A DNA stretch of 64,000 bases. Source: Haloferax sulfurifontis ATCC BAA-897 (GTDB taxonomy: Archaea; Halobacteriota; Halobacteria; Halobacteriales; Haloferacaceae). Position 1 is the stretch's first letter. Each line of letters opens with the position of its first letter. The position numbers were made by a program, and so were the translations under genes. Below are positions 33,022 through 37,082 of the stretch, piece by piece. Location: NCBI RefSeq assembly GCF_000337835.1, contig NZ_AOLM01000018.1, forward strand, positions 62,001-126,000. Direction: 5' to 3'. The notes beneath the pieces are model-generated. The model searched no databases, had not been told where the DNA came from, and worked only from the letters and a program-made list of their open reading frames with translations.

Positions 33022-33095
33022 GGGCTCGTGGTCTAGTTGGTTATGACGCGGCCTTTACAAGGCTGAGGTCGGTGGTTCGAATCCGCCCGAGCCCA
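33022..33095 (+). tRNA. tRNA-Val (UAC)
   Basis: Cloverleaf with acceptor GGGCTCG/CGAGCCC, anticodon stem CGGCC/GGCTG with loop TTTACAA (anticodon TAC), T-arm GGTGG-TTCGAAT-CCGCC and A73. Its 3' half is repeated twice downstream (33184, 33229), and an inverted copy with flank occurs at 36886-36996. Confidence 0.96.
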
Positions 33096-33132
33096 CTAAT
33101 TCTGTGTGAGCGACAGCGAACGCGAATTAGTG
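33094..33132. repeat. inverted repeat abutting the tRNA-Val 3' end
   Basis: CACTAATTC (33094-33102) and GAATTAGTG (33124-33132) are perfect 9-bp arms; the first arm starts at C72-A73 of the tRNA. The inverted copy at 36.9 kb has a compensated version of the same hairpin (CACGAACTC/GAATTCGTG). Confidence 0.85.
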
Positions 33133-33139
33133 AACCGAG

Positions 33140-33245
33140 GGCGGGAGAACCTTACGGCAACCGAGCGGAGCGAGGTTGACGGAGTGGTTCGAATCCGCCC
33201 GAACACCGACTGCGATACGAGCGACCGAGGTTCGAATCCGCCCGA
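33140..33245. repeat. two tRNA-Val 3'-half modules
   Basis: GTGGTTCGAATCCGCCCGA recurs at 33184-33202 (19 of 19 with 33072-33090), and GGTTCGAATCCGCCCGA at 33229-33245 (17 of 17). A degenerate inverted T-arm (GGCGGGAGAACC, 33140-33151) and an inner hairpin GGCAACC-GAGCGGAGCGA-GGTTG(A)C precede the first. After the matched block the acceptor end diverges (ACACC, CTCCA instead of GCCCA). Confidence 0.85.
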
Positions 33246-33251
33246 CTCCAC

Positions 33252-33455
33252 TCACACACTTCGTTGCATCACCAAAAGCGACATCGGGACGTTGGCGGCG
33301 ACGAGACCGAACGCGCCGCCGACGAGCGGTTCGACACCCAGCGACGGACCGAGGAGGTAGCCGCCGACGAACCCGAGCGGGTCGAAGACCAACGCGAGGA
33401 TGATGAGCTGTACTGCGAAGTTCTTGGAGGTGAACCAGCGGGGGAGTAGCGACAC
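33252..33455 (-). CDS. 67-residue two-helix membrane protein
   Basis: From GTG 33455: an aromatic/basic N-terminus (SLLPRWFTSKNF) and two hydrophobic helices (about residues 13-34 and 41-62). The promoter supports the call: ATTAAATA (minus strand, 33490-33483) is 28-35 bases upstream, and a 22-bp palindrome lies between it and the start. No family recognised. The 3' end borders the tRNA-Val modules. Confidence 0.7.
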   Translation of the reverse strand: MSLLPRWFTSKNFAVQLIILALVFDPLGFVGGYLLGPSLGVEPLVGGAFGLVAANVPMSLLVMQRSV

Positions 33456-34733: not shown

Positions 34734-34807
34734 GCCGCCTTAGCTCAGACTGGGAGAGCACTCGACTGAAGATCGAGCTGTCCCCGGTTCAAATCCGGGA
34801 GGCGGCA
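34734..34807 (+). tRNA. tRNA-Phe (GAA), copy 1
   Basis: Cloverleaf with acceptor GCCGCCT/AGGCGGC, D-arm TAGCTCAGACTGG, anticodon stem CTCGA/TCGAG with loop CTGAAGA (GAA), T-arm CCCGG-TTCAAAT-CCGGG and A73. It is identical to the copy at 36732. Two extra 3'-half copies follow downstream. Confidence 0.97.
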
Positions 34808-34857
34808 TATTCTGAGATTCTGAGCGGGGCGAAGAATCGAAGAAACGACGCCGGACT

Positions 34858-34920
34858 GATTTGAACCCAAGAAGTCGAACGGAGTGAGTCTTCTTTCGGT
34901 TCAAATCCGGGAGGCGGCAT
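34858..34920. repeat. tRNA-Phe 3'-half module 1
   Basis: Bases 34897-34920 repeat 34785-34808 exactly (24 of 24). GATTTGAACC (34858-34867) is a perfect inverted partner of GGTTCAAATC (34898-34907), with a nested AAGAAG/CTTCTT pair inside, so the module folds as one long hairpin. Confidence 0.92.
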
Positions 34921-34979
34921 TTCTCTGTACCTGACCACCGAGCGAAGCGAGCGTGGCAGGTACTGTAACTGCCACCCGA

Positions 34980-35044
34980 CCGGATTCTGAACCAGCGAGC
35001 AAATCGAAGATTTGCGAGCGAGGTTCAAATCCGGGAGGCGGCAT
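34980..35044. repeat. tRNA-Phe 3'-half module 2
   Basis: GGTTCAAATCCGGGAGGCGGCAT (35022-35044 less the first bases of the stem) repeats the native gene. CCGGATTCTGAACC (34980-34993) is its inverted partner with one extra base; inside is GCAAATC-GAA-GATTTGC. Bases 35022-35079 match 36784-36841 (native T-arm and flank of tRNA-Phe copy 2) at 57 of 58 positions. Confidence 0.92.
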
Positions 35045-35238
35045 TTTTCTGCGAACTACCGAGGGAGCGGAGCGACCGAGAGTCACCCTCGGTCGGCGGC
35101 AATCGAATTCCGGGCGGCGCAATCGAACAAGACAGCATTCAGACGTTTCAACCCCGGAGAACCGAACACACGGCACCGCTGGACCCAGAGGCGTTCTTCA
35201 GAAGACTTATCCGCGTGAGGTCGCTTGATTCAAAGGCA

Positions 35239-35433
35239 ATGGCGAAAGGTAAGGTCGACTTCTTCAACGACACTGGCGGCTACGGTTTCATCTCTACTGA
35301 CGACGCGGACGACGACGTGTTCTTCCACATGGAAGATGTTGGCGGTCCGGACCTCGAAGAGGGTCAGGAGATCGAATTCGACATCGAGCAGGCCCCCAAG
35401 GGCCCGCGCGCGACGAACGTCACCCGCCTCTAA
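35239..35433 (+). CDS. cspA: cold shock protein CspA, copy 1
   Basis: A 64-residue cold-shock-domain OB fold with RNP1 (GYGFIS) and RNP2 (VFFHM). It binds single-stranded nucleic acid and acts as an RNA chaperone. ACTTATCC at about 35206-35212 is the likely TATA element for a leaderless or short-leader transcript. It is followed by a T-rich stretch (TTTCTTCCGTTTTT) that may terminate transcription. Nearly identical to the second copy 355 bp downstream. Confidence 0.96.
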   Translation: MAKGKVDFFNDTGGYGFISTDDADDDVFFHMEDVGGPDLEEGQEIEFDIEQAPKGPRATNVTRL

Positions 35434-35593
35434 GCAGGTTTCCGTTCACCGCAGTACATTCACAGACTGACGAACTTTCTTCCGTTTTTCACGCCCGCGA
35501 GCGGCGGCGCTCGGCGGCGCACCGCGAGTCGGGCGAGCGATACCCTCGCCATGCGGAAGGGTTATCCGTTCGCAGGCACGTTGTACGGTTGCA

Positions 35594-35788
35594 ATGGCGA
35601 AAGGTAAGGTCGACTTCTTCAACGACACTGGCGGCTACGGTTTCATCTCTACTGACGACGCGGACGACGACGTGTTCTTCCACATGGAAGATGTTGGCGG
35701 TCCGGACCTCGAAGAGGGTCAGGAAGTGGAGTTCGACATCGAGCAGGCCCCCAAGGGCCCGCGCGCGACGAACGTCACGCGCCTGTAA
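35594..35788 (+). CDS. cspA: cold shock protein CspA, copy 2
   Basis: 64 residues, differing from copy 1 only at residue 45 (Val instead of Ile). The nucleotide sequences differ at just 6 of 195 positions, clustered in two spots (about codons 44-46 and the last three codons); the rest, including all third positions, is identical. The upstream regions are unrelated except for GTTATCC placed as in copy 1. This indicates recent duplication or gene conversion. Confidence 0.96.
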   Translation: MAKGKVDFFNDTGGYGFISTDDADDDVFFHMEDVGGPDLEEGQEVEFDIEQAPKGPRATNVTRL

Positions 35789-35831
35789 TTCGGTTTCCGA
35801 ATTCAGTACCAGACGAATCGATTTCTGAGCG

Positions 35832-35956: not shown

Positions 35957-36682
35957 ATGTCCGACGACGGGGAGCTTGAACCTCCCGCGGGAATGGACGA
36001 CTCCCACATCGGCGCGGGCGTCTTCGACGAGACGATGGGCCCGGGTTCGTCGTTCGCACACCTCTACCGGGGCGAGATACACCGGATGAAATCGTGGCGG
36101 GAGCGGCTGGACCGGACCAGCAACTGGGCGATTACGCTGATGGCCGGGATTCTGACGTGGTCGTTTTCCGCACAAACGCACCCGCACTACATCATCCTCC
36201 TCGGGGTGGTGACGCTGAGCATCTTCCTCTGTATCGAGGCGCGGCGCTTCCGCGCGTACGACATCTGGCGCTCGCGGGTTCGGATGTTCCAGCAGAACGT
36301 CTGGGCGTACGCGCTCGATCCCGACGGCGGCGTCCTCGACGAGGACTGGCGGAAGAAACTCGGCGAGGACTACCGCACGCCGAACATGAAGATACCCTTC
36401 GAGGAGGCGCTGGCGCATCGGCTCCGGCGGGTGTACCTGCCGCTTTTCGTCGTGATGCTCGTCGCGTGGGTCATCCAGTTGACGGCGTACACGGACGGTG
36501 CGACGCTCGTCGGGAGCGCCGGCATCGGCGGCATCCCCGGCAACATCATCGTCGCGTTCGTCGCGGGGTTCTACGCGACGCTGTTCGGCGTCTCGTTCCG
36601 CCCGCGCGAGTGGCACGTCAACGGCGAACTCATCCCGAGCGACGTGACGGGGTGGGAGGAGTCGGAGTACGGCGGGTCGTAG
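35957..36682 (+). CDS. DUF2270-family membrane protein
   Basis: 241 residues. A soluble N-terminus with the conserved HLYRGEIHRMKSWRERLDRT is followed by four membrane helices (about 60-78, 82-98, 160-180 and 195-215) and a soluble tail. Between the helix pairs lies a charged region with FRAYDIWRSRVRMFQ. The pattern is that of DUF2270, of unknown function. Located between the two tRNA-Phe genes. Confidence 0.87.
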   Translation: MSDDGELEPPAGMDDSHIGAGVFDETMGPGSSFAHLYRGEIHRMKSWRERLDRTSNWAITLMAGILTWSFSAQTHPHYIILLGVVTLSIFLCIEARRFRAYDIWRSRVRMFQQNVWAYALDPDGGVLDEDWRKKLGEDYRTPNMKIPFEEALAHRLRRVYLPLFVVMLVAWVIQLTAYTDGATLVGSAGIGGIPGNIIVAFVAGFYATLFGVSFRPREWHVNGELIPSDVTGWEESEYGGS

Positions 36683-36731: not shown

Positions 36732-36805
36732 GCCGCCTTAGCTCAGACTGGGAGAGCACTCGACTGAAGATCGAGCTGTCCCCGGTTCAAATCCGGGAGG
36801 CGGCA
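36732..36805 (+). tRNA. tRNA-Phe (GAA), copy 2
   Basis: Identical over all 74 bases to the tRNA-Phe at 34734. The immediate 3' flank (ATTTTTCTGCGAACTACCGA) is shared not with copy 1 but with the second downstream fragment of copy 1, showing that the gene and its flanking modules have recombined. Confidence 0.97.
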
Positions 36806-36885
36806 TTTTTCTGCGAACTACCGAGAGAGCGGAGCGACCGAATCGTGAGCAGTGAAAATGCCACCCGACCGGATTCTGAACCGCC

Positions 36886-36996
36886 CCGTCAACCTCGCTT
36901 CGCTCGGTTGCCGCAAGGTTCGATTTCTTCCTCGGTTCACGAATTCGTGCTCGCTGTCGCTCGCACAGAGTTCGTGGGCTCGGGCAGTTTCGAACC
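36886..36996. repeat. inverted copy of the tRNA-Val 3' half plus its downstream module
   Basis: The reverse complement of this stretch aligns end to end with 33075-33182, from the tRNA-Val T-arm through its acceptor, the adjoining palindrome and the GAGCGAAGCGAG hairpin; identity is roughly 85 percent by eye. It is inserted between the inverted arm (36868-36882) and the direct arm (37025-37041) of a tRNA-Phe module. Confidence 0.85.
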
Positions 36997-37024
36997 AGCG
37001 AGCAGATCTCCGATTTGCGAGTGA

Positions 37025-37041
37025 GGTTCAAATACGGGAGG
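37025..37041. repeat. degenerate tRNA-Phe T-arm/acceptor copy
   Basis: GGTTCAAATACGGGAGG matches the native tRNA-Phe except for one base; the acceptor end is lost after GGAGG. It is preceded by a hairpin like that of module 2 (GCAGATCTCCGATTTGC), and GCCACCCGACCGGATTCTGAACC-type left-arm sequence occurs at 36860-36882 exactly as at 34971-34993. Confidence 0.85.
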
Positions 37042-37082
37042 TACCCCCAATTTAAGGCCGAGAGTGAGAGCCGAAACCCCGC

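Follow-up and report, generated by a model that had tools for sequence, protein, structure and literature searches.

A reversed tRNA-Val tail unit within a tRNA-Phe tail unit of Haloferax, one event in a haloarchaea-wide family of structured tRNA tails

In a 64,000-nucleotide stretch of a Haloferax genome (G000:C18:62001-126000; the window), a tRNA-Val tail unit lies in reverse inside the tail unit of a tRNA-Phe gene. We found that this inverted unit is one recent, locus-specific event among tRNA tail units, a family spread across the haloarchaea in which each unit is built around an inverted tRNA end (antiT). No Rfam family matches these units and the literature searched contains no description of them; the class-wide combination of an antiT and two exchangeable G.A hairpins behind many tRNAs is in neither.

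A sequence-only reading of this DNA had proposed a Val unit, reversed, within a Phe unit. It was right, and comparison with empty sites places the insert at 114 bp (Table 1). In a genome-wide search the best match to the reverse complement of positions 36886-36996 was, as that reading had aligned it, the tRNA-Val tail (86% over 109-111 bp, E=5e-30), and the whole genome held no third matching place besides the insert and the native Val tail. The 23-base identity reported between 36860-36882 and 34971-34993 is also real (100%, query 1-23). The insert spans a GGTTC up to just short of the following GGTTC, which equals a single period of the native Val array; it is reversed relative to its host Phe array, GAACC, which is the T-loop core GGTTC read in reverse, is present at both of its junctions, and the host Phe unit is intact on its left and right. 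The assembly is a draft of 29 contigs, and the inverted unit might be ascribed to an assembly error; however, it sits mid-contig and differs by 14% from the sole other copy in the genome, and therefore cannot be a mis-joined copy of that one. We regard such an error as extremely improbable.

Table 1. Coordinates of the tRNA genes, their tail units and the inserted Val unit in the window
Feature	Position	Strand	Basis or remark
tRNA-Val(TAC)	33022..33096	+	tRNA annotation
Native Val tail unit: hairpin 1, antiT, hairpin 2, tRNA-end copy at 33186-33207	33096..33207	+	
Native Val tail, second, partial copy	33229-33252	+	
tRNA-Phe(GAA), first copy	34734..34807	+	tRNA annotation
Phe tail unit type B; 22/22 tRNA-end copy at 34898-34919	34808..34919	+	
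Phe tail unit type C; 22/22 tRNA-end copy at 35022-35043	34920..35043	+	
tRNA-Phe(GAA), second copy	36732..36805	+	tRNA annotation
Host Phe unit, hairpin 1, type A	36806..36858	+	
Host Phe unit, antiT (TGCCACCCGACCGGATTCTGAACC), insertion target	36859..36882	+	
Left junction core GAACC (minus-strand GGTTC), final 5 bases of Phe antiT	36878..36882	-	Empty sites: GATTCTGAACC then AGCGAGC
Inserted tRNA-Val(TAC) tail unit, one array period, 114 bp	36883..36996	-	86% to reverse complement of 33074-33182; empty site in L003, L005, L113
Inserted Val unit, hairpin 2, apex GAGCGAAGCGAG	36883..36916	-	Sequence; 97% to hairpin-2 halves in L094, L102, L104
Inserted Val unit, antiT, ending AATCGAACC	36917..36937	-	Sequence and empty-site comparison
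Inserted Val unit, hairpin 1	36938..36974	-	Hairpin comparison
Insert's copy of tRNA-Val 3' end (GGTTCGAAACTGCCCGAGCCCA)	36975..36996	-	Sequence; foreign antisense tRNA-Val end, 18/22
Right junction core GAACC, the GGTTC opening the inserted Val copy	36992..36996	-	Empty-site comparison
Host Phe unit, hairpin 2 (AGCGAGCAGATCTCCGATTTGCGAGTGA)	36997..37024	+	
Decayed terminal tRNA-Phe 3' end copy	37025..37041	+	94% of 17 nt

The nearest named relative, H. denitrificans, is 99% identical in the gene at 35957-36682 and is the same species according to the search tool; flanking sequences diverge by about 1-4% between strains of the species. Its site is empty (L003/G361), as are those of H. sp. Q22 (L008/L113) and H. 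marisrubri (L005). The empty sites in L003, L005 and L113 read CTGAACC followed directly by AGCGAGC, between which the window adds its 114 bases, again ending in GAACC. Only one of 15 Haloferax genomes carries the inverted unit, and since the same-species genome and all other sampled Haloferax are without it, the insertion is recent. The filled and empty sites in two strains of one species offer a directly testable case. Between the two tRNA-Phe genes lie two tandem cold-shock-type genes (MAKGKVDFFNDTGGYGFISTDD..., 35236-35444 and 35591-35799; 95% identical), a pair also present in L003 and L113.

The insert is 89% identical to the H. sp. Q22 unit and 86% identical to the local Val unit, and its halves are 94% and 97% like units from further species. 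As the unit of another species resembles it more than the local one does, the insert did not arise by simple copying of its present neighbour; it is thus the recent arrival of an older or foreign Val allele. A simple origin from the present Val unit by local inversion-duplication, which the sequence-only reading had named as its alternative, together with there being just two copies in any genome, is disfavoured by the 14% divergence.

Nor are the copies limited to two. A copy of the gene's own end within 400 bases was found for 23 of the 50 tRNA genes of this genome (0.25 expected from shuffled ends) and for 15 of 42 in G121, a genome of another haloarchaeal family (0.0 expected); across these two haloarchaeal genomes, tails that are modular, conserved in structure and without a name in Rfam follow roughly a third to half of the tRNA genes. 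A census pattern of two T-loop cores separated by 75-105 bases occurs in 140 of 145 Halobacteria genomes and 55 of 58 genera, with some of the hits being tandem tRNA genes, for example tRNA-Asp. Reversed, the pattern gave almost no matches in the Halobacteria genomes; in the rest of the phylum it is rare, and the matches listed look like tandem or neighbouring tRNA genes. Two nearly identical successive units in another genus (G055:C1:62328-62534) are probably a recent tandem duplication. In this genome, where units were read in the surroundings of tRNAs, all seven matches of the 186-bp region adjoin the 3' side of tRNA genes and not the unrelated sites that mark dispersed repeats (SMR, MITE, PATE); a dispersed repeat or transposon was thus rejected.

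The anatomy of the tails was established from 45 units of this genome and G121. Their usual order is tRNA, hairpin 1, antiT, hairpin 2 and tRNA-end copy, the antiT matching the 3' end stretch of the tRNA imperfectly and in reverse complement. The copy block begins at the same core in all 45 units and extends from G53 to N73 (0.8-1.0 identity per position inside, background on either side), without the T-stem 5' strand; many terminal copies are decayed. In 43 of the 45 units the antiT matches its own tRNA more closely than it does other tRNAs, and copies are far more faithful than antiTs. Where a copy and its tRNA end differ, the antiT agrees with the tRNA 76 times and with the copy 26 times, partly owing to truncated terminal copies. 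AntiT-copy pairing is therefore not strictly maintained, and cognate pairing of the two as a selected feature was dropped, the test having gone the opposite way.

In most of the examples printed, the predicted folds comprise the cloverleaf, hairpin 1, and then antiT, hairpin 2 and copy as a single long hairpin. Tandem GA/GA internal loops occur 43 times in the hairpins, against 0.55 expected in shuffled units, and the complementary TC/TC form twice. Since tandem G.A pairs are found almost only on the tRNA-sense strand, the structure belongs to that strand, either as RNA or as single-stranded DNA. The hairpin-2 class also shows the compensatory changes typical of structured RNA: 98.7% of its cells are paired versus 84.5% in shuffles, with 18 two-sided changes versus 6.4, and the earlier suggestion that the structure matters is borne out here. 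For hairpin 1 (Val type) covariation is weak. The paired changes said to keep its palindrome arms are real at one pair, which turns from T-A to G-C on both sides between the native and the inserted hairpin, but the insert has lost another pair (C x A), and the first pair is mismatched (T x C) in five of eight copies. Neutral palindrome dynamics, that is, repeated snap-back replication at tRNA ends in the absence of selection, would yield the observed alternation of T and antiT and agree with the decay of many terminal copies, and template switching is favoured at quasi-palindromes. Such dynamics are nevertheless quite unlikely in view of the strand-specific GA/GA loops, the two-sided changes in hairpin 2, the class-wide persistence and the much greater faithfulness of copies than of antiTs.

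Comparison of the loci shows that whole units and also single hairpins have, on the evidence of their sequences, been exchanged and gained between tRNA genes, with apparent breakpoints at GGTTC/GAACC. The corresponding three tRNA loci of other Haloferax species vary in the type, number and order of their units (arrays of one to three units, V1-V3-V2 in L008 and V3-V1 in L011), and L006 and L007 differ in their unit types with neighbouring genes 97% identical. When units were split at the antiT, Val hairpin-1 type 3 was found paired with hairpin-2 types 3, 4 and 5, Val hairpin-2 type 3 with hairpin-1 types 3, 4 and 5, and Phe hairpin-1 type 1 with hairpin-2 types 1, 2, 7 and 8. Hairpin 2 AGCGAGCAACGCGAAGCGTTGCGAGTGA is identical behind Gly-CCC and Phe tRNAs; CTACGAGACGAGCGNNGCGAGTCTCGGTCC is found behind Arg-CCT, Arg-TCT and, with one base altered, Val tRNAs, in two families; a near-identical hairpin 2 lies behind Arg, Val and Leu tRNAs. 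One long hairpin-2 type, taken as a marker of spread, occurs in 7 of 145 genomes (three genera, two families) behind Arg and Val tRNAs. In the tRNA-Asp array of L034, a copy (GGTTCAAATCCCGTCACACCCG) some 125 bases past the second tRNA gene is at least as similar to the ends of other tRNAs as to that of tRNA-Asp; it is possibly a second case of a foreign unit.

The Val unit within a Phe unit and the hairpins common to different tRNAs thus agree with the claim that units move between tRNA loci. The broader description of them as mobile units holds for this exchange, but not in the sense of a dispersed element, since this is the sole one of 15 Haloferax genomes in which the Val unit is found anywhere but behind tRNA-Val, nor in that of viral carriage: the strict pattern, a weak test, found no true unit on viral contigs, its single match being a phage tRNA cluster.

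The best explanation, to which we give about even credence, is that the units are structured tRNA trailers that trade parts through short-homology recombination at GGTTC/GAACC, a core common to all tRNA T-loops and antiTs. The reversed orientation and both junctions of the insert follow from the Val unit having joined the minus-strand core of the Phe antiT. Exchange may occur where DNA is prone to form hairpins, through template switching or break repair over short homologies and with no dedicated recombinase, and Haloferax is capable of microhomology-mediated end joining (PMC7521656). We infer this route because single hairpins between inverted cores cannot leave as circles and because no integron integrase (TIGR02249) exceeds the 265-bit cut-off in this genome (best 41.7 bits). 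Counting against it, the junction homology is only 5-9 bases, and a recombinase cutting the T-loop could just as well have left the near-perfect copy as its footprint.

The absent integrase also bears on a reading of the units as integron-like cassettes, which a site-specific recombinase would excise at GGTTC and insert at any GGTTC, using the sense-strand hairpins as single-stranded substrate. Insertion of a whole period, junctions at a 5-bp core that dictates orientation, the reordered arrays, the shared core that starts every copy block and the one-stranded G.A hairpins would all be expected of such cassettes. The unit core is, however, GTTCRAA and not attC GTTRRRY / RYYYAAC, the units are without any gene, and single hairpins between inverted cores were swapped alongside whole periods such as the insert, which excision cannot do. 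An integron proper was rejected for its missing integrase and different core, and integron-like cassettes we consider unlikely. Class-wide gene-less hairpin cassettes on the T-loop core, acting as structured trailers or spare 3' ends and moved by a dedicated GGTTC-recognising recombination pathway, are likewise a doubtful proposition.

As trailers, the units would persist because of the structure they take up as RNA, the hairpins behind the cloverleaf shaping tRNA 3'-end formation or termination. Such a function is suggested by the strand-specificity of the structure, and a role in termination is possible because in Haloferax T-stretches serve as terminators and hairpins can do so too (PMC7237163). 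Against the trailer reading, transcription could already end within hairpin 1 at T-rich tracts that immediately follow the tRNA. If the units are transcribed, they form an extra, unstudied layer of tRNA maturation in a model archaeal group; if they are a DNA system, tRNA T-loops are a site of unit exchange without a known enzyme.

Alternatively, the copies may be att duplications left by tRNA-targeting proviruses, or decoy att sites that shield the tRNA. The identity block does run from the T-loop to the discriminator at the tRNA 3' end, as in a classic att block, and archaeal integrases favour tRNA 3' ends and duplicate this part from the T-loop onward (PMC8371274). In H. denitrificans, moreover, roughly 640 bp of AT-rich DNA of foreign appearance (L003:6977-7613) directly follow an intact tRNA-Phe end copy, where the window continues into its own flanking sequence; an element that had integrated at the copy instead of the tRNA may have left this remnant. 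However, no integrase-bearing element lies between the copies, the intervals being gene-free and 50-150 bp long, the hairpins and antiT are shared and conserved outside the att block, and the strict pattern leaves viral contigs without units. Two integrase genes (G000:C4:165410-165610 and G121:C1:728322-728771) lie 0.7-1.4 kb behind tRNA-Arg(TCG) and tRNA-Leu(TAG), both without a tail unit, which fits decoys only weakly (n=2). Scars or decoys are therefore rather improbable.

The tail units are best read as neither a dispersed transposon, nor an integron, nor a provirus. Tandem repeats bearing a tRNA end are already known: the tyrT gene of Escherichia coli is reportedly followed by tandem repeats of about 178 bp, each with its last ~19 bases, which are said to yield a small RNA (rtT, Rfam RF00391; no match in the window). 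These repeats share with the tail units the end of the preceding tRNA but concern a single tRNA locus and are not known to have an antiT hairpin pair. Also known are integrase duplications of the tRNA 3' part from the T-loop (PMC8371274); these flank kb-sized integrase elements, whereas tail units enclose about 90 bp of hairpins. Integron attC sites and gene cassettes resemble the units in having short imperfect palindromes as exchange units, a small core and one active strand, whereas the units have no IntI, another core and no genes, are bound to tRNAs and exchange single hairpins. SMR-A and PATE of Haloquadratum walsbyi, which insert into another repeat's palindromes, are similar in length (~110 bp), in their inverted repeats and in lacking target duplication and transposase, but they are dispersed, SMRs being commonly >95% identical within a type (PMC3119063); tail units are mosaics that include the tRNA end and are confined to positions behind tRNA genes. 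Finally, Haloferax transcripts contain t-elements (named in PMC7521656), which have a tRNA-like structure, are processed by tRNase Z and RNase P and, like the units, are tRNA-derived structured sequences; t-elements mimic a tRNA, whereas the unit copies hold only G53-N73.
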